From the NCBI GenBank assembly GCA_014376785.1, contig JACMQW010000010.1:1-49404 (forward strand): a stretch of 49,404 bases of DNA, read 5' to 3'. The notes below the pieces were generated by a model, which was not told the origin of the DNA, searched no databases, and saw only the letters and a program-made list of their open reading frames with translations. Made by a program: the position numbers and the translations under genes. This DNA is from Oligoflexia bacterium. Its GTDB lineage: Bacteria > Bdellovibrionota > UBA1018. Position 1 is the stretch's first letter. Each line of letters starts with the position of its first letter. Shown piece after piece: positions 3,980 through 46,380 of the stretch.

Positions 3980-4930
3980 CTAGTCTTCTCGAAAAGAGGC
4001 ATCATTCCCAAGGTAAGGTTCGATTCCATCGACCAGCTCTTCCGCAGTAAACGGCTCATCGGCACCCCGGTTAGAGAGCGAAGTCGAAGGCCATCGACTC
4101 GATTTCTCAGAACTGGGGCTGCAGTACTGCTTGAGAATTTTCCGTATCCGCGTGACATCCCTTTGCAGTCCGCGATACGGAACGGTCTCGTACTTCGAGT
4201 CTCGAACTTGACCGTCGCCGTACCGGTAGGACCAGGTGTAGGTCAGCGCAGGATAATTGCTGTCCACGATGTCCATCGTGTATCCTCCAGGCAATCGAGA
4301 CATTCCGATCACCAGCGCCGCATGGGCATCGATGCCTTTCAGTTGGAGCATCACCCACGGGAAAAAATTCTCCGCCGCCCCCCGCAGGGTGTACTTGTAG
4401 AGGTCATCCATGATTTTGCGCATGCGGCCCGGTTGGCGACCCAAATCTGCTCGACCGGCAAGGCCTCTTAGCCAGGACTGATTCAATATCCCGTCCCGCA
4501 ACTGCCAAGCGTTTAACTCGGACTGAATTTCCGGCTTAAAATCAGCGGAAAACGAATCGAAATCTCTGTAGCCCGGGATAATCTGGACACCTCGGAAGTG
4601 GGCCAACCCATTGATTAAGCGGACGGCTTCGTCCCGAGTGGGTTTTGGCTCATTTGCCCGAAACTCAGCGAGCGCCCAAACGCTCCGTTGGAAACGCGAA
4701 TGCCACCAGCAGGTTCCGGCATTCATCAGTCCTCCGCTGTTTTTAAAATCGAAGCGAGAATCGGGATCGCGAGAGACCTCGCGGTGCAGATCCGAGTGGA
4801 TGTACCTCGCGCAGACGCTCGGGGGAGCAGACGCAGAAGAAACTCGAGAGACAGCGGCTACCGCGATCACCGAAAGAAAGAAGCCAATCCCTAGCTTGGA
4901 AAGAATGGTGACGCCGAATCCTTGGTTCAC
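3980..4930 (-). CDS. Secreted protein of unknown function, possible papain-like hydrolase
   Basis: Not assigned to a named family. The 316-residue product begins at a GTG with AAGGTGA just upstream. It has an N-terminal hydrophobic segment (GIGFFLSVIAVAAVSRVSSASA), consistent with a signal peptide. Three sites are spaced like a Cys-His-Asp/Asn hydrolase: GGLMNAGTCWWHSRFQR (Cys about 73), DAHAALVIGM (His about 202) and YTMDIVDSNYP (Asp/Asn about 220). That order is typical of papain-like or C39-like folds, but this is inference from local motifs only. It lies 5 nt downstream of the GT87-like gene, so it is probably in the same operon. It converges with nadA across a 65-nt gap. Confidence 0.65.
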   Translation of the reverse strand: MNQGFGVTILSKLGIGFFLSVIAVAAVSRVSSASAPPSVCARYIHSDLHREVSRDPDSRFDFKNSGGLMNAGTCWWHSRFQRSVWALAEFRANEPKPTRDEAVRLINGLAHFRGVQIIPGYRDFDSFSADFKPEIQSELNAWQLRDGILNQSWLRGLAGRADLGRQPGRMRKIMDDLYKYTLRGAAENFFPWVMLQLKGIDAHAALVIGMSRLPGGYTMDIVDSNYPALTYTWSYRYGDGQVRDSKYETVPYRGLQRDVTRIRKILKQYCSPSSEKSSRWPSTSLSNRGADEPFTAEELVDGIEPYLGNDASFRED

Positions 4931-4935
4931 TCACC

Positions 4936-6105
4936 TTAGGATTGCAGATCTTTTCGAAAGATACAAATCGCAGCTAAGCTTCCCCAGAGTTTCACGGATA
5001 AAAACTCCAGTCGGGATCCGGCCGCACCCATCGTTTTAGCAGTCACTGCGCCGATCAAAAGCGCGCAGAAACCGTAACCGATGACCCGCCTCCATCGAAG
5101 GTTTTTCATCGCTTCTTCCGCTCCAAATACCAGCATGGGGTAGGTGAAAAGAAAGACGTGGAACCACGCCAGCGGCTGAACCGCAGGTAAAACAGCGAGC
5201 CAACCGATCCACTGAACCTCAGGCTTTAAACGCCGAGAAAGAAAGATCCAAAAACCGACGATGAATGCGGTCGAAACCGAAATCGCAAAAAGAACATCCC
5301 TCGGTTTCTTTTCATCCAAGCCCGTCTCGCGAAGGAGAAAAGAGGGCAGCCCTTGCACTTCGCGAGTGGTAAAACCGATTCGAACCCGGTCCACATCAGA
5401 GGTGCCCGAAAAAAGCGCCGCGGACCACTCCGTTCGAAGTGCTCGGTAATGTCCTCTGTAGGAATGAAAATAGATCGGAAGGGAAAGAGCAATGAAGAGG
5501 GCTCCCACACCCAAGACATTCAGGATGATTTTCTTTCTTTTCACGGAGTGAAGAAGTGGAAGAAGCGTCGTGAGCTTTGCGGAAAATGCGAAAGCCAGAA
5601 TGAAAAATTTCGCAAATGAGGAGCGGACGGGATCGATCCATAGGGCAAGCGCCAGCACGAGAAGCGTGATTTGGCCGGTCATCCCATGACTTCCGAAAAG
5701 CGCGAAAAAAGTCAGGAGAAAAAATGCCTGGATTGCCGGCCGGACCGCGGGCAGTCGCCCAATTCCGCGGTGGATTCGAATCACGATCGCGAATAATGAT
5801 CCCGCTTCCACAAACCCCCAGATGAGCTTCGCAGTGAGCGGATCCATAAAACCAAAAGGCAGAAAAAGCGGGAGGATCCAAGGCGGGTACTTGAAAACCA
5901 TGTTCCCATACGTGACCGAGTCGTACGGTCGAACGCCGTCCCAGAACCGCTGGGCGACTCGGTAAAAAACGAGGAAGTCATCGCCCCGAGAAAGGGTTCG
6001 GCCCATCAAGACCGCACTCAAACCGAGGGTCACGAGAATCAGGAGAATGAGCGGACCGCGATAACGTTTCATGAGGGTTGGAAAGTCCTGGGGCATGAAC
6101 CCCAT
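4936..6105 (-). CDS. GT87-like polyprenyl-linked mannosyltransferase family membrane protein (DUF2029)
   Basis: Multi-pass inner-membrane protein with roughly nine to ten hydrophobic helices. The first loop contains DFLVFYRVAQRFWDGVRPYD followed by YPPWILPLFLPFG. This matches the GT87/DUF2029 pattern: a D-F-x-V-Y-x-A motif, then a Y-P-P motif that normally faces the outside and binds lipid-linked sugar. By family it would transfer a sugar (often mannose) from a polyprenyl phosphate donor to an unknown acceptor. The open frame begins at a TTG at 6135, but ATG codons at 6105, 6096 and 6072 are better candidates; 6105 is given and the true start is uncertain. The secreted protein gene follows after 5 nt. 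Confidence 0.7.
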   Translation of the reverse strand: MGFMPQDFPTLMKRYRGPLILLILVTLGLSAVLMGRTLSRGDDFLVFYRVAQRFWDGVRPYDSVTYGNMVFKYPPWILPLFLPFGFMDPLTAKLIWGFVEAGSLFAIVIRIHRGIGRLPAVRPAIQAFFLLTFFALFGSHGMTGQITLLVLALALWIDPVRSSFAKFFILAFAFSAKLTTLLPLLHSVKRKKIILNVLGVGALFIALSLPIYFHSYRGHYRALRTEWSAALFSGTSDVDRVRIGFTTREVQGLPSFLLRETGLDEKKPRDVLFAISVSTAFIVGFWIFLSRRLKPEVQWIGWLAVLPAVQPLAWFHVFLFTYPMLVFGAEEAMKNLRWRRVIGYGFCALLIGAVTAKTMGAAGSRLEFLSVKLWGSLAAICIFRKDLQS

Positions 6106-6222
6106 TCGTAACCTATAACTCGATGCATCGACCAATCGAATGCCAAGTCAGTCGCATGAAAGAATCTCGCTAGCGTTTGGATGTTTCTGGGCATACTGGA
6201 GAGAGGAAACCGATAAAACTAA

Positions 6223-6936
6223 ATGGGTCAGGCACTTTCTCTCCCTCAGCATTTGAACACTCACGCTGCGCAAGGACTGATTCCGGGCGAAATCGTCGCG
6301 CAATACGAGCTCGGTCCACTGAGGAACTTTGTCTACCTCGTGATCGACTGGACTGAAAAGTCGGCCGTCATCATCGATCCCGCTCGGGATTTAACCCCCC
6401 TGAAAGATTTGGCCGCGCACGGAATCGAGCTGAGTGGAATCCTCCTCACCCACTCTCACCACGATCACATCGCGGGGGTTCCGGGGATTTTAGCTCTTTA
6501 TCCCGATTTGCCTCTCTACGTTCATCAAGAAGACCAGCACCGATTAACCAGTCTGAAATCTCCGCGTTTCCATTCAGTTCGAGACGGTGAACAATTAAAA
6601 CCGATGGGTGCGAAAAGCGCTTTAACCTTCAAAGCGATCCACTCCCCCGGACACACGTCCGGAGAAATCTGCTACCTCCTTGAGGGCGAATTCGGCGGCT
6701 ACCTCTTTTCGGGTGATACGCTCTTCATCCGGGACTGCGGCCGCACCGATTTCGACACCGGAAGTAATGAAGAGATGTATTCGACTCTCCAAAAACTAAA
6801 GCAACTTCCTAACGAAACCATTTTACTCCCCGGACACCATTACGCACCGGAAACATCAAGCTTCATGGGGATTGAAAAAAAATCGAGTCCCCCGCTTCTG
6901 GTGAGCTCCGTCGCTGAGCTCCGCTCACTCCCTTAG
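6223..6936 (+). CDS. MBL-fold metallohydrolase (glyoxalase II / persulfide dioxygenase-like)
   Basis: Cytosolic 237-residue metallo-beta-lactamase-fold hydrolase. The metal-binding motif is LLTHSHHDHIAG (His77, His79, Asp81, His82), with further ligands in SPGHTSGE (His144), GDTLFIRDCGRTDF (Asp about 165) and LPGHHYAPE (His about 205). The GDTLFIRDCGRTDF string is characteristic of the ETHE1/persulfide dioxygenase and BlH-like subgroup. It lacks an obvious rhodanese domain or the long C-terminal domain of true glyoxalase II. The substrate is therefore uncertain: a persulfide or a thioester. It is followed by kup after only 6 nt, suggesting co-transcription. Confidence 0.85.
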   Translation: MGQALSLPQHLNTHAAQGLIPGEIVAQYELGPLRNFVYLVIDWTEKSAVIIDPARDLTPLKDLAAHGIELSGILLTHSHHDHIAGVPGILALYPDLPLYVHQEDQHRLTSLKSPRFHSVRDGEQLKPMGAKSALTFKAIHSPGHTSGEICYLLEGEFGGYLFSGDTLFIRDCGRTDFDTGSNEEMYSTLQKLKQLPNETILLPGHHYAPETSSFMGIEKKSSPPLLVSSVAELRSLP

Positions 6937-6942
6937 GAATTT

Positions 6943-8838
6943 ATGTCACACTCTGAACCTAAAAGTTTCAAAGCCACGCTGGCGCTCTCGTTTGCCGCGC
7001 TCGGTGTCGTCTTCGGGGACATCGGAACGTCCGTCCTCTACACTTTTCAAGAATGCTTCCATGGTGCCCATCCGGTTCCCATCGATTACGATAATGTGAT
7101 GGGCATCACGTCCCTCATCCTCTGGTCCCTCATCATCGTCGTAACGGTGAAGTACGTTTGGATTATGATGGAGGCCGAAAACAAGGGCGAAGGCGGCATC
7201 CTTTCTCTTCTTTCTCTCGTCCCCGCTCCCCTCCGGTACAATGCGGCCGGAACTTTGGCCGCAGCATCCCTCCTCGCCGTGGCGGGAGCCGCCTTACTCT
7301 TCGGCGATGGGATCATCACCCCAGCGATCTCCGTGCTGGGCGCGATGGAGGGGTTAGAACTAGCGAACCCTGATTACGTTCAATACGTGGTTCCGGGAAC
7401 GATCACGATTCTGTTTCTGCTCTTTGCAATCCAACGGACCGGCACCGCCCGCATCGGAAAATATTTCGGGAGCATCATCCTTGTTTGGTTTGCGGTCATC
7501 GCTTTCTTAGGCGTTCGAAAGATCATTGGTTACCCGGTGGTTCTGCGAGCGTTTAATCCTCGCTACGCCTCTCACTTCTTCGTGCACGAAGGGTGGAGCG
7601 GAATAAAAGTACTCGGTTCCGTGATTCTGGCGATCACCGGCGGTGAAGCCCTCTATGCAGACATGGGACATTTCGGTAAAAAGCCCATTCGCATCGCGTG
7701 GCGCACGGTCGTGCTTCCCGCGCTGATGCTAAATTATCTCGGCCAAGCCGCACTCATTTTACAGGATGAAAAAGCTTCTTTTCGACCTTTTTATTCCTTG
7801 ATTGAGGGTCGGGGAGTCGCCTACTACGCGCTCATCTTGCTCGCTACCGCAGCGGCGATCATCGCTTCTCAAGCCCTCATTACGGGCGCGTTTTCCCTGA
7901 CGCAACAAGCGATCCGGATGGGAGTTTTTCCCCGCGTGAAAATCATCCACACCTCAGAAGATGTTCAGGGACGCGTTTACATTCCATTTATGAATTGGCT
8001 GCTCGCGTTTTCTTGTATTGCCATCGTACTGGGCTTCCAAAAATCTGAACGCTTGGCAGCGGCCTACGGACTTGCAGTCAGCGGCACGATGCTAATGACC
8101 ACTCTCGTGTTTTTCTTTGTCGCGCATTACCGCTGGAAATGGGAACTCTGGAAAGTCCTACCTCTCGTGCTTTTCATGGGAATCGTGGATATCGCATTCC
8201 TCTATGCAAACCTGCTTAAAATTCCGGACGGAGGCTACCTCCCGCTGATGATTGGTTCGGTCTTTTTCTTGGTCATGATGACTTGGCAATACGGGCGTGC
8301 CCAACTTTCAAAATTCTACCGCGAACGATCCAAAACGATGGATGGATTTTTTAACGAAATCGATTGCAAACAAACTCGCCGGATTCCCGGTTGCCTGGTG
8401 GTGCTCGCTTCGACTGAAAATAAAGTGCCGCCCGTACTCGCCCGGCTCGTCGACTCCATGCATGTGATTCACGAACACGTCGTACTCGTCACCGTCACGA
8501 CCGTAGACGCTCCGTTTGTCCGTGAGGACGAACGGGTCCGCGTGACGGATATGATGCACAATGTTTCTCGCGTGATCATGAAGTACGGGTTTATGGAAGC
8601 CATGGATGTGCCTGAAGTGCTCTCTCGCTGTTACTTTTCGCACATGAATGGATTTCCGAAAGATTCAGCCACTTACCTGCTCGGTCGCGAAACGTTCATC
8701 ATCAACGGGGATTCGCTCTTCGAACGGGCAAGACAACTCTGTTTCTCGGCGATGAGTCGGAACACGACCTCGGCGTCTGATTACTTTAACCTGCCTTCCA
8801 GCCAAGTCATCGAACTTGGGGCCCAGCTCGCGGTCTGA
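6943..8838 (+). CDS. kup: Low-affinity potassium uptake protein Kup
   Basis: K+/H+ symporter of the KUP/HAK/KT family in the inner membrane. The 631 residues match the usual length of about 620-630. The N-terminus carries the hallmark LGVVFGDIGTSVLYTFQECF, followed by VKYVWIMMEAENKGEGGI and FGDGIITPAISVLGAMEGL. About twelve hydrophobic helices span residues 15-455. A cytosolic C-terminal domain follows, containing CLVVLASTENKVPPVL and the FMEAMDVPEVL segment. AGGA sits 6 nt before the ATG. It is sandwiched between the MBL hydrolase (6 nt) and the LysR regulator (4 nt), so these genes probably share a transcript. Confidence 0.96.
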   Translation: MSHSEPKSFKATLALSFAALGVVFGDIGTSVLYTFQECFHGAHPVPIDYDNVMGITSLILWSLIIVVTVKYVWIMMEAENKGEGGILSLLSLVPAPLRYNAAGTLAAASLLAVAGAALLFGDGIITPAISVLGAMEGLELANPDYVQYVVPGTITILFLLFAIQRTGTARIGKYFGSIILVWFAVIAFLGVRKIIGYPVVLRAFNPRYASHFFVHEGWSGIKVLGSVILAITGGEALYADMGHFGKKPIRIAWRTVVLPALMLNYLGQAALILQDEKASFRPFYSLIEGRGVAYYALILLATAAAIIASQALITGAFSLTQQAIRMGVFPRVKIIHTSEDVQGRVYIPFMNWLLAFSCIAIVLGFQKSERLAAAYGLAVSGTMLMTTLVFFFVAHYRWKWELWKVLPLVLFMGIVDIAFLYANLLKIPDGGYLPLMIGSVFFLVMMTWQYGRAQLSKFYRERSKTMDGFFNEIDCKQTRRIPGCLVVLASTENKVPPVLARLVDSMHVIHEHVVLVTVTTVDAPFVREDERVRVTDMMHNVSRVIMKYGFMEAMDVPEVLSRCYFSHMNGFPKDSATYLLGRETFIINGDSLFERARQLCFSAMSRNTTSASDYFNLPSSQVIELGAQLAV

Positions 8839-8842
8839 TGAG

Positions 8843-9721
8843 ATGAATCTCGACTTTATACGTTGTTTCGAAGTCTTGGCGGAAACCCTTTCATTTTCGG
8901 CGGCAGCCGAACGCCTAAATCTCGCGCAGTCGAATGTCTCCCGCCAAATTCAGCTCCTCGAAAAAGAAGTGGGCGCTCAGCTTTTTCAAAGGACCCGCCA
9001 CGGCGTATCGCTGACTTCGGAAGGTCAGAGGTTCAGAGAACAAGTCCTGCCGCCTTGCCTTTTTTTCAGAGAAAGCATCGCGAAATTTACCCGCTCTGAG
9101 CAGGAAGAAGTGGGTGAAATCAAATTCGGATGTTTTGGGGAAGTCGGAAAAACGTTCTTCATGCCGCTTTGCTTGGAGTTCCAAAAACTCTATCCGCGAG
9201 TCACAATCGAAATGACTTACGAAAGCGAAAGCACGATTTTTTCAATGATCAACCACTCGCGGATCGAATTTGGCATTGTTTCGCATCCACCGATTATCGA
9301 AGGCCTCGCCGCCTACCCCGTACTCAGTCAAAAAATATCTCTGTTTGGTCCTAATCGCGACGGGACACCCGCGCGCGAAGAAATCGAGAAAGCACCCTTC
9401 ATTGCGTACGAGAAATCAGACGTCCTGCTGAGTGAGCTCTGGCTTCGTAAAATTTCTAAACGAAAAAAACCCAATGTGGTTACGGTTGTGAATTCGCACG
9501 ACTCGATGATGACAGCGATCGAAACTCTCGGAGCTTATGCCGTACTCCCCGCAGGTTCAGCGAAAGAGCGCGTCAGGGAAGGCCGCATCAAACCGATCAG
9601 CGGCTATGGATTCGAAGTTCCCCTTTTTCTCGTCCATCCCGCGGGAACATTTATGTCTAAAAAGAATAAAACTTTTAAACAGTTCGTTTTACAGCGGTCC
9701 CGCGAAACTGGGGAAACGTGA
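8843..9721 (+). CDS. LysR-family transcriptional regulator
   Basis: DNA-binding regulator of 292 residues. I chose the ATG at 8843 (MNLDFIRCFEVLAET) rather than the TTG at 8816 inside kup, because LysR proteins start a few residues before the helix-turn-helix. The winged HTH covers about residues 15-60 (FSAAAERLNLAQSNVSRQIQ, then ALF-like QLFQRTRHGVSLTSEG). A periplasmic-binding-like effector domain follows, from GEIKFGCFGEVGKTFF at about 90. The start is 4 nt after the kup stop, and its stop overlaps the start of the TonB-domain gene (GTGA). It is not divergently placed from any target, so its regulon cannot be read from context. Regulation of kup is possible but not shown. Confidence 0.93.
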   Translation: MNLDFIRCFEVLAETLSFSAAAERLNLAQSNVSRQIQLLEKEVGAQLFQRTRHGVSLTSEGQRFREQVLPPCLFFRESIAKFTRSEQEEVGEIKFGCFGEVGKTFFMPLCLEFQKLYPRVTIEMTYESESTIFSMINHSRIEFGIVSHPPIIEGLAAYPVLSQKISLFGPNRDGTPAREEIEKAPFIAYEKSDVLLSELWLRKISKRKKPNVVTVVNSHDSMMTAIETLGAYAVLPAGSAKERVREGRIKPISGYGFEVPLFLVHPAGTFMSKKNKTFKQFVLQRSRETGET

Positions 9722-10467
9722 AACACGTAGCGGCAAGCCTCACTTTTCATGCGGCACTCGCGGGACTGTTGATCGGTGTTTTGGCTTATTCCCATCCCTC
9801 CGTAAAAGGTTCTTCCGGAAAAACCGGCTCGCCCGGAGCGCATTTAGAAATGACCGTCGGACCTCTCACCGCGCTCGAAACATCCCAGGTCCAACCTAAA
9901 ACCCAGTCCGTTCCAACGGTTCCGAAACCTGCTCCAGTTGCACCATCGGCAAGCCAGCTTTCCACCGCCGAAGAAGGAATACCGATCAAACCTTCCAACG
10001 AGAGCATTACCCAAACAGACTCGGACACGAACGATAGTGAAAGTCGAGACGATGCGACCCTTGCTCGCAGCCTTCCGACCACATTGAAAAACACTCACCC
10101 CCGGAATATCGGCGCAAGTGGACAGGCCGGAGCGGGAGGCGAGAATGGCTTCGGAAATACTCATTCTGACCAGATCGGGAATTCGAATCATTCCGATGCG
10201 CTTGGAATTTATCTCTTGAAGATGCATCGAAAAATTCAGGCGAATTTAAAAGGCGTCGGATACATTCGTTTCGAAAGTCGTGCGCTGCTCACCCTTTCAC
10301 TCCGTAAAAGCGGAGCGGTCGATCGAATCGTCATTACGACGTCCTCCGGAGATCCGAATCTCGATCAAAAAGCCATCAATGCGGTAAAGGCCGCGGCACC
10401 TTTCGACCCGTGGGAGAGCGACCAGACGATCCAGGTGCCCGTGACATTCAAAGCCTCGGAAGAGTAA
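9718..10467 (+). CDS. TonB C-terminal-domain protein
   Basis: Probable periplasm-spanning energy-coupling protein. The 249 residues start at a GTG overlapping the LysR stop. One N-terminal membrane anchor (ASLTFHAALAGLLIGVLAYS, residues 5-24) is followed by a low-complexity Pro/Ser/Thr/Asn/Gly-rich spacer (about 30-150). The C-terminal domain (about 165-249) contains YIRFESRALLTLSLRKSG, IVITTSSGDPNLDQKAINAV and AAPFDPW, the pattern of the TonB/TolA-type C-terminal fold (S-G-x-x-x-L-D-x-x-A). No exbB/exbD or TonB-dependent receptor is nearby. It may couple to motors elsewhere or act in gliding or secretion; the partner is unknown. Confidence 0.83.
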   Translation: MKHVAASLTFHAALAGLLIGVLAYSHPSVKGSSGKTGSPGAHLEMTVGPLTALETSQVQPKTQSVPTVPKPAPVAPSASQLSTAEEGIPIKPSNESITQTDSDTNDSESRDDATLARSLPTTLKNTHPRNIGASGQAGAGGENGFGNTHSDQIGNSNHSDALGIYLLKMHRKIQANLKGVGYIRFESRALLTLSLRKSGAVDRIVITTSSGDPNLDQKAINAVKAAAPFDPWESDQTIQVPVTFKASEE

Positions 10468-10542
10468 GGTGCGAATCAGGTAAATTTTGCCGAGATTATT
10501 TTACCTCTCGAGCAAAAGCAGCCCGCACCGAAAGGAAACTGT

Positions 10543-10565
10543 AGGCCTCATCCCAGGCCTGGAGG
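10543..10565 (+). promoter_or_regulatory. Hairpin abutting the ribosome-binding site of the lipoprotein gene
   Basis: AGGCCT is repeated at 10543-10548 and 10555-10560 with a 6-nt spacer; being self-complementary, the two copies can pair. The strong Shine-Dalgarno GGAGG (10561-10565) begins directly at the foot of this stem, 6 nt before the ATG at 10572. Such a stem could tune translation or be incidental. Confidence 0.35.
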
Positions 10566-10571
10566 TTTCCC

Positions 10572-11297
10572 ATGCGTCTTTCGACCGTTTCTCTCGCCCT
10601 TTTCCCGGTTGCAGCTTCTCTCGCCTTTTCCGGATGTGATCTCGGGAAGTTCGGCACTAAAACCACGACGGAACTAAGCGGATACGACACGATATCAGGC
10701 TATTACACGAGCCTCCCGCAGTCGGTTGCCTTCTCCGCTACGATGAAACATGAAGATCCAAGGAACCAAAACGGAACCGTGAATCAAATTCCAGACTTCT
10801 TAAAAAGTGTCATGGCAAATCCAACCCTCCTTTACTACGACGATCCCATTAAAGGCCTTGGCTCTCTCCGTTCGCACGTGGACACTGCGAATGGGATTCC
10901 CACAAAAATTCAAGACAAGACCGGCACGTTCGGCTCATCCTCTTCCGCGTATGGTGAGGTCACGGGCTGTCGCTTGGTTCAAGAAAAAACCAATAGCGGC
11001 ACTTTCTCCCAACTTGCGGACACCGTGATCGTGAACAAATACAAAGCCAGAGGACGCCTCGCGCTGGACTTCGAACTGAAGTACTCGCTCGAAGGAACGG
11101 ATGCGGATTGTGACCCGGTCCGTGCTCTCTTCAAGTCGTGTTACATCGATGGAACAAATTGCTCGTCGGATAGCCAAAGCATTTTCTACCGGGCTTTCAT
11201 CCAGGAAATTTTCGATCCATTCATTCACTCCGGAATCATGACCGAAGAGGAAATCGGGGTCTTTCGCGATGTCCGCTATGAAGCGAAGTACGAATAA
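10572..11297 (+). CDS. Predicted lipoprotein of unknown function
   Basis: Not recognised. The 241-residue product has a classic lipoprotein signal: basic start, hydrophobic core (LALFPVAASLAFSGC) and lipobox LAFSGC with the acylated Cys at about residue 21. The next mature residue is Asp (CDLG), which under E. coli rules would keep it in the inner membrane, though that rule may not apply here. The mature protein has four to five further Cys (GCRLV, DCDPV, SCYIDGTNCSS), suggesting disulfides in the periplasm. GGAGG precedes the ATG. It stands alone between the TonB-domain gene (104 nt) and rdgB (70 nt). Confidence 0.78.
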   Translation: MRLSTVSLALFPVAASLAFSGCDLGKFGTKTTTELSGYDTISGYYTSLPQSVAFSATMKHEDPRNQNGTVNQIPDFLKSVMANPTLLYYDDPIKGLGSLRSHVDTANGIPTKIQDKTGTFGSSSSAYGEVTGCRLVQEKTNSGTFSQLADTVIVNKYKARGRLALDFELKYSLEGTDADCDPVRALFKSCYIDGTNCSSDSQSIFYRAFIQEIFDPFIHSGIMTEEEIGVFRDVRYEAKYE

Positions 11298-12080: not shown

Positions 12081-13139
12081 TCAAATCGACTGACAGCGAT
12101 TTTGGGTGCAGGCCGTCTGGGTGGCAGCCGGGTTACATCCCGAGAGCGTGTAGCCAGCATCGTCGTGACATTTGCAAAAGCCTTGTCCAGTCGGATCGTA
12201 CCAAGACCCGAAAGCATTCGTCGAAATAAAGCAGACGGCCGGATTAATGTCGCAGGAGTGGTTATCGTACTGAGAACAATTCACTGCCGCCGGAGGAACG
12301 TATGCTGGGTCGGGCGCGCACTGCGTATCAGATGAATAGAAACACGGACTGGTAATCGTAACCGTCGTGCAGAAGCACTGACTAGCTCCCGGGGTACTAG
12401 TTTGAGTATACGATGTCTCTGGATCGGCGCATCCGCCTACACCTTGAACTGTATAAACGTTCCCCGATGAGCAATCAAAAGGCGAACTGGTAGGGGTAGG
12501 CGAGGGAGGTGTGATCGACAAAGTGGGAGACGGCGTGGGCGTCGAACTCGACGGAGGATTCCCTGTCCCCGAAATATAAATGGTTTCAGCAGGATAATCT
12601 TTCCCACACTGCCCCTTCATTTCCGCTCCTTCGAAGCAGGCACTGGCAAGTTGGCAATAGGCGCCGGTGCTTCGAGTAAAACACGCTACAACATGCGCTT
12701 CGACGATTTCGTTTGGCTGCAAGCTCGGGCAATCGATCCCCGTCGGAGTGAGAACCATTTTGCCTAAGTCGACCACGCCACCCGGCCCCTGATCCTTCGC
12801 ATAACGCTCAAATCCGCGCATTCCCACGCAGCGATTCAAAAAATCGAACGGTTCGTCTATTCCTGTATGGCCTGCGGACAACTCGAAAAATCGAGCAACC
12901 GCCGGTGTGTTGGGCGACGGGCAATAAGCGGCTTTATTGGATTCCCTCTGACAATCGATCAAGGCTTTATACTCTGGAGACCATATCGGATAGATCTTGG
13001 TCTTATCTAAAGAGATGTTTCCAACCATTGGAAAAAGTGAACTCAGAGATTTCGGAGCTGCGTGAAGGAGAGTCGGGCTCGATAGGATACCCGCCGCACT
13101 TAAAAAACTCATTAGGAAAAGTCGAAGAAGTAATCTCAT
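12081..13139 (-). CDS. Secreted Cys-rich protein, paralogue of the broken lectin-like gene at 22.7-24.2 kb
   Basis: Not in a family I can name. The 352-residue product has a signal peptide (LLLRLFLMSFLSAAGILSS to about residue 28). A conserved N-terminal domain (about 30-195) contains WSPEYKALIDCQRE, FFELSAGHTG, FDFLNRCVGM, VVACFTRSTGAYC and QCGKDYP. This domain aligns closely with the N-terminal part of the pseudogene at 22701-24192. A Ser/Thr/Pro linker follows (about 200-225). The C-terminal domain (about 226-352) is Cys-rich with about 16 Cys, suggesting an extensively disulfide-bonded module. AGGGGAAACC precedes the ATG. It lies 17 nt after a short prepilin-like gene, so it probably belongs to that operon. 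Confidence 0.75.
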   Translation of the reverse strand: MRLLLRLFLMSFLSAAGILSSPTLLHAAPKSLSSLFPMVGNISLDKTKIYPIWSPEYKALIDCQRESNKAAYCPSPNTPAVARFFELSAGHTGIDEPFDFLNRCVGMRGFERYAKDQGPGGVVDLGKMVLTPTGIDCPSLQPNEIVEAHVVACFTRSTGAYCQLASACFEGAEMKGQCGKDYPAETIYISGTGNPPSSSTPTPSPTLSITPPSPTPTSSPFDCSSGNVYTVQGVGGCADPETSYTQTSTPGASQCFCTTVTITSPCFYSSDTQCAPDPAYVPPAAVNCSQYDNHSCDINPAVCFISTNAFGSWYDPTGQGFCKCHDDAGYTLSGCNPAATQTACTQNRCQSI

Positions 13140-13156
13140 GGTTTCCCCTTTCCCTT

Positions 13157-13387
13157 TTACGGATCGGCCGGTGGAGGCGGCGATACTTTTCTTTCGTAAC
13201 GCATTTGCTGCTGATAACTGAAGGCTTCTTGCTTCACGCGAATATTCGTTTCGGTCTTAGTCGTGGAAGTCATCAACATCGCCAGTCCCATAGCGATCAC
13301 GACACTCAGTCCTGCGGCAATGATGATCTCGAGCAGCGTGAAACCGCTCGAATTTTTCAAATCTGGTCCGATCTTTAAATCATCCAT
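13157..13387 (-). CDS. Very short type IV prepilin-like protein
   Basis: A 76-residue product with a class-III prepilin leader: 15 residues ending in Gly, then FTLLEIIIAAGLSVVIAM. Gly15 | Phe16 with Glu20 at mature +5 is the canonical PilD/GspO processing and methylation site. It would be cleaved in the inner membrane and could join a type IV pilus or type II secretion pseudopilus. Beyond the helix only a short charged tail ending in Pro (SPPPPADP) remains, with no globular pilin head. The open frame extends to 13456, but the start at 13387 (MDDLKIGPDLK) gives a normal short leader. It is the middle gene of a three-gene leftward operon. Confidence 0.7.
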   Translation of the reverse strand: MDDLKIGPDLKNSSGFTLLEIIIAAGLSVVIAMGLAMLMTSTTKTETNIRVKQEAFSYQQQMRYERKVSPPPPADP

Positions 13388-13418
13388 CCTGCTGCATCTC
13401 TCTAGCTGTCTTTGAACA

Positions 13419-13673
13419 TTAAGGGGGCGAAGGCGAAGGGTCAGGAAATCGACCATTCGCCAACATGTATTTTTCCAAATTCCTGCCCGTTACGTACTGG
13501 TCTCTTGCTCGGAGTCGACTCATACTTTTACTAAATGAGGTCGAACTGCTGGTGAGATAAAGTGCCATCAGACTTAAAAAAGCGCCGAGCATGATCACTT
13601 GAATCATCCCGATCCCTTCTTCACTTCTCAGGGTCAGACTTGCTCTCACAAACACGTTCCGCATGACTCCCAT
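13419..13673 (-). CDS. Short prepilin-like protein lacking the conserved Glu5
   Basis: An 84-residue product with a basic leader (MGVMRNVFVRASLTLRSEEG) followed by IGMIQVIMLGAFLSLMALYL, the layout of a type IV prepilin leader and N-terminal helix. If cleaved after Gly20, the mature +5 residue is Gln rather than Glu, an exception seen in a few tip-type minor pseudopilins such as GspK. The remainder is a short helix (SRLRARDQYVTGRNLEKYML) and a Pro/Ser tail. There is no globular head domain. A start at residue 4 (13664) is equally possible. It is first in the leftward operon and about 245 nt from the divergent 803-residue protein gene. Confidence 0.6.
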   Translation of the reverse strand: MGVMRNVFVRASLTLRSEEGIGMIQVIMLGAFLSLMALYLTSSSTSFSKSMSRLRARDQYVTGRNLEKYMLANGRFPDPSPSPP

Positions 13674-13917
13674 TCTAGCTGCGATTGCTCGAAATAAGCA
13701 AAAGCCAACACTTTGACGAAAACACCTCTGCTATCCGACGGCCTAGCATATTTTAACCCCGGATCACGACGTGTTGATGTCTAATCTATCGAATCAGGCT
13801 GCCATCCGTAATGAGTCAAATTAGCCACAGATTGTGGAATGTTCCGGTATCTTGATAGACTGATAGAAACCGATACTGAGTAACGAACGAAAGTCTCAGA
13901 CTACCAGAGGGGTTCCC
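13674..13917. other. Divergent intergenic region of the surface locus
   Basis: These 244 nt separate the leftward prepilin-like operon from the rightward 803-residue gene. It must hold both promoters, but I see no convincing -35/-10 pair at standard spacing on either strand. There is no ORF of note. The rightward gene has AGAGGGG 5 nt before its ATG. Confidence 0.5.
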
Positions 13918-16329
13918 ATGCCGATGACTTCCCAATTTCGCCGAAGTCTTTTCCATAAAATTCGCATTCTCACCGCAGCGGTAGCGCTCGGTGTGGTCTG
14001 CACCCCTCTTCCAAACGCCGATGCTTTGAATAACGCCCTCACCATCATCTCGACTTCTCCGATCATCACCCGGCAAAGTGGAATCGTTAAAGTTCCGCTC
14101 AGCGGACTCTTTCCTACGGCAACTTCGGCGACGCTTGGAACCTTTTCATCGGTAGCGGGAAATAATTCGATTAGCGCCCAAGCGAATTATAAAACGATGA
14201 TGTCCCTATGCCGGGTGTACGGTGCTCCCGCAGTTCCGTGCAACGGTCTCGCCGCATTCGGAACGGTGAATTCCGCGAGCGCTCCAGAATCTCAGCGCGC
14301 GATGAATAGAATGGTCACGCTGAATCCTCTCGGCGCGAGACGGTATGTCGACGTGGATGTGTCCGGCGGGAATGTTTCTTTTCCCGAAACGGACGTCCGC
14401 CAAAACGAAATTGGATTTGTGAACGTCAGCTATTACGAAGGCCAAAAAGGCATGCCTTTTAATCGTTGTGATGCGGAGATCATCGCCTGTGGATCGGAAG
14501 TAGTCGGTTGCCCCATCGCCCAAAAGTCGGCGTCTTGCACGCCCGTCGTGGCTTCGAATACATTTGTAAACGCGAACTGCGAATGCCGGGATTCCAGTGG
14601 CCAACCAGACCCCACAAAATATTTAGCGAGCTGCATAAATAATGTCCCCGTCTGTAATCCGATACCGCCTCAGATCATTAATTGCCCGGTCGGACAAATC
14701 GCTGACGGGGGAATTTGTAAATATTCTTGGAGCTGTAATTCTCTGACGCCTGCGGAGTCAGCGACCCGTACGAACGTCTGCGATACGACGACCCTATCAT
14801 TCGACCGATCGCTAAGTGTCCCTGCTTATTTCCCTTCCACCCTTTACTGCAGCGGAACGATGGCGTGCCCTGCGAATAATTGCCAAGCCGGAAACTACGT
14901 TTCTGGCCAGAGTTGTTCTACTTGCGCGCCAGGAAACTATGCGCCTTCGACGAATATGAACGCCTGTATTTCTTGCCCGGCAGGAAGCATCGCGCCTGCT
15001 CCCGGAGCGGCGACCTGTAACGCTTGTCCCGCCGGCTCTTCTTCTTTAGACGGACTGACCTGCACGCCTTGCGCAGCGGGAACTTATCAGTCGACCCCTG
15101 GATCTGCGACATGCGCGGCTTGTCCGAATGCGACGATCCCCGGAGCGGGAACCGTCAGCACGACCTCGCCGGCAGGAGCTAGCACACTCAGCCAGTGCTC
15201 GACTCGCCCACTCACTTGCGTCGCAGGTTACTCCGTCGACCCAACAGGAACGATGTGTAATCCGAATCCTGGGGCAAGCAATCCTCCTCCAGGATGCAAT
15301 TTCACTCTGACGACCTACCCGGTCCAACCGGGTAACGCCACGGCTCAGAATGGCGCCATTAATGTCTATACTGCCGGTACTTTCATCGGGCCGATGAGTT
15401 TTAGCTACACGAAGAACGGCGCGCCCCAAGGAATCGTCACAAATGTTACCGCCTCTACCGCCCGACTTTCGAATGCCGGAGAAGGCTCTTACGTCATTAC
15501 GGCCACTGACACCGGCGCGGGCGGATCGTCTTGTAATCAGTCCGTTACTCAACCCCTCTCTGGATCTTGTGGATCGGTTTCTTGGTGCCATTTAGCTACG
15601 AGAACGAAGACTTGTTACAATGATGGCACGAACTCCACCGGCCCCGGAATGGGATCCTGCAGTCCCGACCAGGGCGGAGCATCTCCTGCCTGCCCGGGTG
15701 CCTGCGGTGGCGGAGGACCAGCAAAGCTCGTATATAACGTCCACGACGTGAACGACTGCACCGTCGGCGGTGGAACCGTCGTCCAAGGCCCGCTCGGTTT
15801 GAACGAGCAATTTTGTAAATTTAGTTTCCCCACCGCCTCAGGCTCGACAAATAATTCCTGCCCATCCGGTTGGACGAACTATAATAATTACCGCGCGACT
15901 GAAGGTCGATTCATTCCGGTCACGTATGTGAATGGCGGTCTCTACGCTAACCGATGTACGATACCAAGGACGGATGGGAATACTGGAAAAACGATCACCC
16001 AGTACGACAGGTTCTACACGGCGGACACACCGACCGTGGTTTCGCAGCCTTTCGCTATGAACGCGTCGAATTTGAGTTCACAGCCTTATTATAACTTCTA
16101 CAGTGACAACTGCGCACAAGACCCTTATTCGATTTCTGCTCCTACCCCGAACGTCGGCGGAGCCATCACGATGCTTCAAGGGCTCGACCATTGGTTCGGC
16201 AAAGGACTGGATTTCTGGATCAAGTCCGCTTTCGCTTTCCGATTCTGCCCTGGCGGAAACATCACCTGCGATATGACCGAAGGCTTCACTGACGTTCCAC
16301 TCTACATAAAAGAAATCGGATGCTACTAA
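13918..16329 (+). CDS. Large secreted Cys-rich protein with ephrin-receptor-like (GCC2/GCC3) repeats
   Basis: An 803-residue exported protein. The signal peptide ends near residue 36 (AAVALGVVCTPLPNADA). About 45 Cys are spread along the chain. Residues about 330-410 hold tandem modules of the form C-x-x-C-x-x-G-x-Y/S-x(8-12)-C-x-x-C (CSTCAPGNYAPS, CISCPAGSIAPAPGAATC, CTPCAAGTYQSTPGSATC), the signature of the GCC2/GCC3 / ephrin-receptor-like family better known from eukaryotic surface proteins. Other regions: an Ala/Ser-rich N-terminal domain (40-200), an SprB-like or Ig-like segment near 460-545 (NGAINVYTAGTFIGPMSF, GEGSYVITATDTGAGG), and an Asn/Tyr-rich C-terminal domain. It has no transmembrane anchor. 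It is divergent from the short-prepilin operon and followed by a small secreted protein. Confidence 0.75.
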   Translation: MPMTSQFRRSLFHKIRILTAAVALGVVCTPLPNADALNNALTIISTSPIITRQSGIVKVPLSGLFPTATSATLGTFSSVAGNNSISAQANYKTMMSLCRVYGAPAVPCNGLAAFGTVNSASAPESQRAMNRMVTLNPLGARRYVDVDVSGGNVSFPETDVRQNEIGFVNVSYYEGQKGMPFNRCDAEIIACGSEVVGCPIAQKSASCTPVVASNTFVNANCECRDSSGQPDPTKYLASCINNVPVCNPIPPQIINCPVGQIADGGICKYSWSCNSLTPAESATRTNVCDTTTLSFDRSLSVPAYFPSTLYCSGTMACPANNCQAGNYVSGQSCSTCAPGNYAPSTNMNACISCPAGSIAPAPGAATCNACPAGSSSLDGLTCTPCAAGTYQSTPGSATCAACPNATIPGAGTVSTTSPAGASTLSQCSTRPLTCVAGYSVDPTGTMCNPNPGASNPPPGCNFTLTTYPVQPGNATAQNGAINVYTAGTFIGPMSFSYTKNGAPQGIVTNVTASTARLSNAGEGSYVITATDTGAGGSSCNQSVTQPLSGSCGSVSWCHLATRTKTCYNDGTNSTGPGMGSCSPDQGGASPACPGACGGGGPAKLVYNVHDVNDCTVGGGTVVQGPLGLNEQFCKFSFPTASGSTNNSCPSGWTNYNNYRATEGRFIPVTYVNGGLYANRCTIPRTDGNTGKTITQYDRFYTADTPTVVSQPFAMNASNLSSQPYYNFYSDNCAQDPYSISAPTPNVGGAITMLQGLDHWFGKGLDFWIKSAFAFRFCPGGNITCDMTEGFTDVPLYIKEIGCY

Positions 16330-22700: not shown

Positions 22701-24192
22701 TCACGGGAGCTGACTGGTAATGTTCACGTAGATTTTTCCAGCGTTTTTATTCCACTCCCAATTATTGTGAATGGTGAAGAATAGTCGAGTGGCGCCCGGA
22801 GGAACCACGAACTTCTGAACAGCGCCTCCCGTTGTTTTGCCGTCCCCAATAAAGAACATTTGTTTCAGTTTCGGGCGAAATTCCAGGCGATTGAATCTAA
22901 AGCCGGAATCGGTGAAAGGTTCGGCGCATCGGGACCTAGAAAAATACCGATCAAGGCAGATGCCGGGGCGGCCAGGTAAGGAATGAATCCAATTCCAATG
23001 GTTTTACAATTTTTCGCAGCATCCACTCCAGCACACGTTTCTCCAGGGCTAGTAACGGTCGCTCCCGCGGTCGTCACCATTACCAGAGTGGTTGCGCAGC
23101 TGTTCGTCACATCGTCTGGTAACTTATAGCTCGTAGAAGGGATGACAGACCATCCGCGCGATAGAAAATCAAGATACTCCTGGGTCGGCGCGGGAATTTC
23201 GCCCGGATTGCCAAAGAATTGGTTGTTGTATTGTTTCCCGCAATTACCCTCGGCGGGAGTGAACTTGGTTTTCTTTCTCCAAAACATCATCAGCGCAATC
23301 GAATCTCTCGGTCCTTGGTAATAATCCAATGTGTAAGGAATTTTTACTCCCTGTTTCATCGTGAGCACATCGGACGCGCATCCGTATTGGTTTGGATGAT
23401 TCCCGTCGTTATCGACCCAAAGCTTTAGGGGGCGCCATTTCCGGCAAATAAGTGACTTGAGCGAAAATACCGTCGCGCACGCCGACCGGTTCGTTTGTCG
23501 CGAATGCACCGCAAACAACGGGCGCGTTCGCAGTAGGTGGCACCGAAGAAGGAATCATTATTTTCATCACATCGAGTACTGCACCATTCTGAACCAACAC
23601 GTAGGCGTACAGATCCGTTGCCGTGCTCAGGGTGACCGTTGTTCCGCTCGGATCCACGGACGGAACGACGGCACTCGCAACGGGAGCGGGCAACCAAGGC
23701 GTTGGACCGGAAAGAATCTGGGTAATCTTTCGCACACTGATCGCTGTGACCCACTCCCGCAAAACAGGCAGTCGCCGCGGTACAATAAGCGCCGGTTAGG
23801 CGTTCATAACAAGCCACTAGCTGGAGCGCGACCACATCGTTTTTCTGCGTATTACAGGTCACATTCCCCGAAGCATCGAACGTGGGAAATCCGATCTGGT
23901 TGCCTTCGCCCGATGCAGAAACAGCCACGCACCGATTCATGATATCGAAACGATCGGTGCCTTCAGAGCCAGAGAGCTGAAAGAAATGAGCGGGCGCGAC
24001 AGGGTCGCACGACTCCTTCTGATTCGCACAGCGGACAAAGTGGAGGTACTCGGGAGAACCCGTTTGATAAATTTCCGACGAATCGATTCCGGTGATGTTC
24101 GGAATTAAAGTCGCCAGGGGTTTACCGTAGTCCAGACTGGACAGCGGCACGATCATGATCCCCATTGCGATGATTCTGTCTTTCAAACTCAT
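22701..24192 (-). pseudogene. Frameshifted PA14/LecA-like lectin-type secreted protein
   Basis: One gene read in four successive pieces. From 24192, the N-terminal domain matches the 12.1-13.1 kb protein (GSPEYLHFVRCANQKESC, FDIMNRCVAV, LVACYERLTGAYC, QCAKDYPDS). A shift near 23708-23718 (run of T) moves to LSGPTPWLPAPVASAV. A shift near 23423-23433 (run of C or A) moves to LWVDNDGNHPNQYGC, then YTLDYYQGPRDSIALMMFWR, resembling PA14-type sugar-binding domains. A third near 22890-22900 (short T run) moves from ALIGIFLGPDAPNLSP to FFIGDGKTTGG and VVPPGATRLFFTIHNNW, ending at TGA 22701; this last part looks like a LecA/PA-IL-type lectin domain. One-base corrections restore about 497 codons. Recent decay is likely; assembly error is possible. 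Confidence 0.72.
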
Positions 24193-45876: not shown

Positions 45877-46380
45877 TTAATGAGTCCCTGGAGTTGGAGC
45901 GGCTGGTTTCGTCAGGTCGGGATTCGGAGCGTCGGGACCGGGTCCGCCGAGTGGGCCGCCCATTGGTCCGTCCTTAGGACCTTCACCCGGAGGGTGATCG
46001 CCTGGGCCTGGCTTGTAGCCCTTGCGCTGGCAATGATCGCAAGATTCGCAATCTTTTTTGCCGGACTTACAATCTGGGCAATCGTTGCATTCGGCCTTCA
46101 TTTTTTTATCCGCACGTTTTTTTACATCTTTGCAAGCTTTGCATTCTGGCTCGCCTTTATCGTGGCACTTCTCGCAGTGAAGTTTTTCGTTCGACTCATG
46201 AATCGTTCTCAGAGGTCCTTTCGGAGGTAGTTTTGGTTTCCCGGTATCTTCTTGAGCCATGGCTTTTTTTGCTTCCATCGCGTTTTGCGCTGCCGCCGCT
46301 TTGGCGAGCGGAGCGGAAAGAAGGGAAAGACTAAAAGTCAGTGATAAGAGAACCAATGAACTGAATTTGACCATATGCAT
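45877..46380 (-). CDS. Secreted Cys-rich CxxC-repeat protein
   Basis: Not recognised. The 167-residue product has a signal peptide (SSLVLLSLTFSLSLLSAPLA, cleaved near AKAAA). The core (about 65-125) holds repeated Cys pairs: LHCEKCHDKGEPECKACKD, AECNDCPDCKSG and KKDCESCDHCQRKG. The first is also a CxxCH (CEKCH), so haem attachment is possible, but clustering of Cys with Lys/Asp/Glu fits metal binding or a disulfide-rich fold better. The C-terminal 45 residues are Pro/Gly-rich (GPMGGPLGGPGPDAP). AGGAAG precedes the ATG by about 8 nt. Confidence 0.75.
   Translation of the reverse strand: MHMVKFSSLVLLSLTFSLSLLSAPLAKAAAAQNAMEAKKAMAQEDTGKPKLPPKGPLRTIHESNEKLHCEKCHDKGEPECKACKDVKKRADKKMKAECNDCPDCKSGKKDCESCDHCQRKGYKPGPGDHPPGEGPKDGPMGGPLGGPGPDAPNPDLTKPAAPTPGTH

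Follow-up and report, generated by a model that had tools for sequence, protein, structure and literature searches.

Paired headless prepilins and exported cysteine-rich proteins in an uncultured relative of Bdellovibrio: a candidate type IV filament tip module

The m1, m2, g3 and big genes

Two genes for headless prepilins and one for an exported Cys-rich protein lie in the order m1, m2, g3 on the minus strand of the window, the whole 49,404-nucleotide stretch of DNA analysed here, which is contig C35 of assembly G000, an uncultured genome of 3.2 Mb (96.6% complete) from a relative of the predatory Bdellovibrio. m1 (13419-13673), recognised as an ORF with homologues, encodes 84 aa without Glu at mature position 5 (Gln5) and is separated by 31 bp from m2 (13157-13387), an ORF of 76 aa with Glu5 that has homologues and a match to Pfam N_methyl, with g3 (12081-13139; 352 aa, 22 Cys), called as an ORF, following after 17 bp. 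The initial annotation had read this stretch as two mini-prepilins with leader, helix and Pro-rich tails but no head followed by an exported Cys-rich gene, and all three genes are present as it described. The trio is real, but the conserved cluster extends beyond it to big (13918-16329, plus strand), a divergent gene encoding an exported Cys-rich protein of 803 aa with 47 Cys, identified by Pfam PF07699 and by homologues in two related genomes, G001 and G049. Because big is conserved too, the cluster is counted as four genes, and on sequence comparison the conserved unit is m1, m2 and g3 together with the divergent big. The 244 bp between m1 and big (13674-13917) presumably hold both promoters; a consensus scan for promoters in this region and scans for terminators gave a signal not above that of shuffles.

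m1 has a class III prepilin leader with predicted cleavage after Gly20 to leave a mature protein of about 64 aa, and the leader and helix (G/IGMIQVIM) in m1 and its homologues fit the class III pattern as judged by eye, with no Pfam or NCBIfam family matching m1. In the case of m2, processing is predicted at G/FTLLE to give about 61 mature residues, and the score of 21.2 bits against Pfam N_methyl is exactly the gathering score; an alternative longer ATG frame for m2 opens at 13456, within m1. Both mature proteins are made of one long helix at the N terminus and an end rich in Pro, the tails PDPSPSPP of m1 and SPPPPADP of m2 being encoded at 13422-13445 and 13160-13183, respectively. A count by hand put four or more Pro among the last 10 residues of five mini-prepilins out of the six homologues in window-type clusters, against 1 of 150 background ORFs. 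Such tails characterise the m1/m2 sub-family and a few others, with the other headless prepilins of the order lacking them.

g3 carries a signal peptide, 6% Cys and no membrane anchor, with an N-terminal KSLSSLFP motif followed by a domain (12585-13052), a Pro/Ser/Thr linker and a Cys-rich end. big likewise has a signal peptide and no membrane anchor, with an N-domain (14095-14514), Ephrin_rec_like repeats in the middle of the protein (PF07699, E 1.9e-7) and a C-domain (15727-16326) ending EIGCY. The g3 domain and the big N-domain are related (hhalign 88.7%, E 2.5e-6), profile comparison having been used as a joint MAFFT alignment misplaced the Cys columns, and an LxxLFP-like motif lies close to the mature N terminus in nine g3/big proteins. 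The AlphaFold model of the g3 domain, of middling confidence (pLDDT 68), had no PDB match that could be used (Foldseek E 0.73 and VIA-align Z 3.5 at best), its profile matched no PDB sequence, and the model of the big C-domain was too poor for use (pLDDT 41). No match for big was found by tblastn among plasmids.

Elsewhere in the window, a g3 paralogue at 22865-24192 (minus strand) has a g3 domain (23713-24123) and then two other frames, so coding through three frames as a pseudogene or through assembly indels; its end recalls a PA14-like domain by eye, with no Pfam match. A gene with no prepilin nearby, at 45877-46380 (minus strand), encodes another exported Cys-rich protein (6% Cys in 167 aa), which has CxxC pairs and ends in a tail rich in Pro and Gly. 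Across the phylum, exported proteins whose front parts are otherwise unrelated share a recurrent Cys-rich domain at the C terminus (HxxxDC ... CK ... CPxGW ...), often ending GCY, which is found in the window at 15727-16326 and at L019 9471-10103, L047 4616-5902 and L042 1-1755.

Conservation of the headless state

The four-gene set is kept in three genomes from two families. Named contigs homologous to that of the window belong to the MAGs Bdellovibrionales bacterium SZAS-2 and Oligoflexia bacterium AM-2014_bin-1399. In G001, which belongs to the same genus, the three genes encode 69, 74 and 183 aa with 4-bp overlaps at both m1/m2 and m2/g3, and the divergent layout of m1 and big is also present, the big homologue (512 aa) likewise ending EIGCY. 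In G049, from another family of the same order, the prepilin pair (75 and 73 aa) is spaced by 3 bp, the g3 and big homologues are divergent from the pair such that g3 does not lie behind m1/m2, and two further copies of the g3 domain are present. Of 291 genomes searched in the phylum, three contain the g3 domain, and of 241 searched for the big N-domain, the same three contain it; the cluster was not found in G002, an 87% complete assembly from the same genus. As such, the expectation that the trio would be conserved in related genomes is borne out within a narrow range, three of 291 genomes, and with g3 divergent in one of them.

In all three genomes both prepilins lack a globular C-terminal head, with only a short tail after the helix, and the m1 homologues of G001 and G049 have leader, helix and tail in common with m1. 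Mature position 5 is Gln, Phe or Leu in m1 and Glu in m2. Broken frames do occur elsewhere in the assembly, at 22865-24192 and in a prepilin on contig C37, and might suggest that m1 and m2 are decaying truncated pilin genes or products of assembly errors. This is barely credible given that lengths and tails agree across three separate genomes in which heads would have no space, and that the protein sequence of a related headless prepilin is unchanged in three genomes. This last gene, from another clade, shows 21-26 nucleotide differences and 0 amino-acid differences among the three genomes, and purifying selection, as judged from the sequences, acts on it. m1 and m2 are not truncations, since G001 and G049 encode the same headless pair in genes that overlap or lie 3 bp apart, and no frameshift-truncated full-length pilin, which had been named as grounds for rejecting the reading, lies behind the mini-prepilins. 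Truncation or frameshift of full-length pilins is thus excluded by the headless homologues and by spacing without room for heads, and the comparison indicates that the headless state is a maintained form.

Headless prepilins and their neighbours across the order

A search of 55 genomes of the order with an m2 profile, followed by reading of the loci one by one, revealed about 30 headless prepilins in 15 genomes, some 26 with Glu5 and five without, the headless status of those on G045:C29, G051:C51 and G047:C10 being taken from frame length alone. The mature proteins are mostly 58-76 aa, with one of 101 aa carrying a long Gly/Ser tail. When a second profile built from 17 headless sequences was run over 291 genomes of the phylum, the best 23 matches were short frames of this order (the 17 in the profile and six new), and among those listed, the matches outside the order were full-length prepilins except for three near contig ends and another of 134 aa. 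For several headless prepilins, the T2SS minor pseudopilins are the nearest models in NCBIfam.

Genes for exported, Cys-rich proteins (3% Cys or more) made up 15 of the 31 genes lying within 260 bp of a headless prepilin and 8 of the 127 remaining genes at these loci (odds ratio 14, Fisher p 1.6e-7), a p value to be taken as indicative because the loci are partly non-independent, three being window-type, and a simple rule on hydrophobicity served to call signal peptides. At least three sets of partners, with no similarity detected between them, can be told apart: g3 and big; the proteins of G043-G050-G052, G025 and G041, linked by hhalign (84%, E 7.7e-6, and 77.5%, E 1.9e-5); and two proteins from G041 and G001:C27. 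hhalign did not link the g3 domain to the other partner families. In one group of genomes (G051, G045, G038 and G048) the headless prepilins instead adjoin Cys-poor genes. This diversity of partners, together with the group that has Cys-poor neighbours, could mean adjacency without partnership, in which general minor pilins of the main pilus happen to lie beside unrelated Cys-rich surface proteins, but the enrichment of exported Cys-rich neighbours, the 4-bp overlaps and a four-gene set kept across families make this very unlikely.

In family f5, an S4/pseudouridine-synthase-like gene is followed by the headless prepilin (L084 4980-5225; L085 4834-5097; L086 4778-5023; L088 5099-5338 and 5349-5576 in tandem) and then by Cys-poor genes, with the prepilin identical as a protein in three genomes.

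A putative tip module and its precedents

The pairing of a headless prepilin with Glu5 and one without is found in the window-type cluster, at G001:C27 (L078 4547-4837 and 4864-5085) and at G041:C6 (L083 3936-4223 and 5113-5310), and at the latter two the member without Glu5 directly adjoins a Cys-rich partner of the third set, homologous between the two loci. The tip complex of type IV filaments is capped by a subunit without Glu5 (PMC10191384), and it is mainly for this reason that m1 and m2 are read as a tip-priming complex that may have been cut down to its helices. The genome of the window encodes two prepilin peptidases (Peptidase_A24), nine secretion-ATPase matches and, on contig C86, T2SS pseudopilins. 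Taken together, we give about an even chance to the cluster encoding a pared-down, multi-part module for the tip of a type IV filament, either a pilus or a T2SS-like pseudopilus.

In such a module the prepilin peptidase of the cell would cleave m1 and m2, and one of the several secretion ATPases present would drive the filament. m1, lacking Glu5, would cap the filament with m2 docking below, and the pair would therefore prime assembly in the manner of GspK/GspI/GspJ or PilX/PilW. g3 and big would take the place of fused heads, being exported by Sec and folded with disulfides in the periplasm before binding m1 and m2 at their exposed ends, with the LFP motif or N-domain most likely contacting the Pro-rich tails. 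The growing filament would then carry g3 and big through the secretin, to serve as a tip adhesin or to be released. The suggestion in the initial annotation that the mini-prepilins may be shafts or adaptors by which the co-encoded protein is exported or displayed is compatible with the Glu5/non-Glu5 pair, the tight gene coupling and the recurrence of the design with other exported Cys-rich partners.

An alternative is a dedicated T2SS-like secretion route, with the headless pair tipping a pseudopilus that pushes out g3 and big as soluble or cell-surface proteins and with no displayed pilus. The presence of T2SS pseudopilins in the genome, the T2SS minor pseudopilins as nearest models for several headless prepilins, and the signal peptides of g3 and big without any anchor would all be in keeping with this, but the sequence data agree equally with a displayed pilus tip and we consider pure secretion unlikely.

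The tip module proposed here shares features with several known systems. In type IVa tips (PilX/PilW with PilY1, and T2SS GspK/GspI/GspJ), as here, subunits with and without Glu5 are encoded with a large exported Cys-containing tip protein (PMC10191384), but in this cluster both prepilins are headless and g3 and big are unmatched by the PilY1 model. The PilY1 propeller PF05567 gave no Pfam match for g3 or big at E up to 1, and for g3, big and the other partners a PilY1 identity is rejected on the missing Pfam match; an order-wide search for PilY1 was silent, its controls being equally silent, and is uninformative on whether PilY1 is present. TcpB/TcpF of V. cholerae and CofB/CofJ likewise combine a minor pilin with a co-encoded exported protein, and the secreted protein, TcpF hooking onto TcpB by its N terminus, has a conserved segment close to the mature N terminus, as in g3 and big (PMC9565799), a likeness of layout. 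TcpB and CofB, however, bind their cargo through large trimeric heads, whereas m1 and m2 are headless.

Headless pilins are not unprecedented, with both Flp pilins and Geobacter PilA-N known. In Geobacter, as here, a headless pilin of about 60 aa adjoins a gene for a separate exported protein (PMC5174107), although there a single major pilin with Glu5, PilA-N, has a small beta-sheet protein as its partner, in contrast to the Glu5/non-Glu5 pair and large Cys-rich partners described here. For Geobacter PilA-N/PilA-C it has been proposed that the pair arose by gene fission (PMC5174107), and applied to m1 and m2 this would make the Cys-rich protein a detached head that rejoins the helix, the two together making up a whole filament subunit that may repeat. 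Among solved structures, the truncated pilins of Geobacter come nearest to the headless profile, over the N-terminal region only. In addition, a C-domain profile built from big, the G043/G050/G052 partners and one G193 lipoprotein picks up, in the same genome, a long prepilin by its head (E 7e-4), a protein not among the profile sequences. The C-domain match and the Geobacter structural neighbours are the reasons for considering that some partners may be derived from prepilin heads by gene fission. A split subunit as the account of the cluster is nevertheless quite unlikely, since two different helices, one without Glu5, are more in keeping with a tip than with a subunit that repeats, no fusion of the g3 domain to a prepilin turned up in a search of 291 phylum genomes, and the partners are of several unrelated kinds, some far above the size of a pilin head (803 and 1053 aa).

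The Kil system of Myxococcus (Tad) comes from another predator and also has exchangeable tips with a headless short pilin in the tip cluster, the 59-aa headless KilO being required for one of the tips (PMC12075869). It differs in that KilK and KilO are Flp adapters and the KilLMN tips are prepilins with heads, whereas the partners here have ordinary signal peptides and m1 and m2 are unmatched by the Flp Pfam model. Neither m1 and m2 nor the homologues of the pair matched Flp_Fap (E up to 1 or 0.5), and an Flp/Tad identity for m1/m2 is rejected on this missing Pfam match. With these precedents (PMC5174107; PMC12075869), describing the cluster as a candidate new surface system goes too far, as it resembles a stripped-down version of a known type IV tip complex; searches of the open-access literature found no account of clusters like these in relatives of Bdellovibrio.

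Since related loci combine the same headless socket with other Cys-rich partners, the tips of the proposed module would be exchangeable. Extending this, it is tentatively possible that these Bdellovibrio relatives possess a lineage-specific class of modular type IV filament tips, in which a headless Glu5/non-Glu5 pair forms a general two-helix socket into which unrelated exported Cys-rich proteins plug non-covalently, giving several exchangeable tips per genome for tasks such as the recognition of prey or surfaces. Tip complexes set what type IV filaments adhere to and export, and their intertwined heads are difficult to dissect. A headless two-helix socket with separately folding partners would rank among the smallest tip complexes known, and because the priming pair is separate from its partners, filament priming could be tested apart from cargo. 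Likewise, exchangeable pilus tips, known from Myxococcus Kil, would reach Bdellovibrio relatives via a different architecture.

Elsewhere in the same genome, on contig C37, the L043 locus (4326-11266) encodes long Cys-rich prepilins, one with Gln5 and one frame-broken, downstream of a 1235-aa lipoprotein, and an RCC1-repeat protein of the same kind as at this locus adjoins headless prepilins in G025, G043 and G050.
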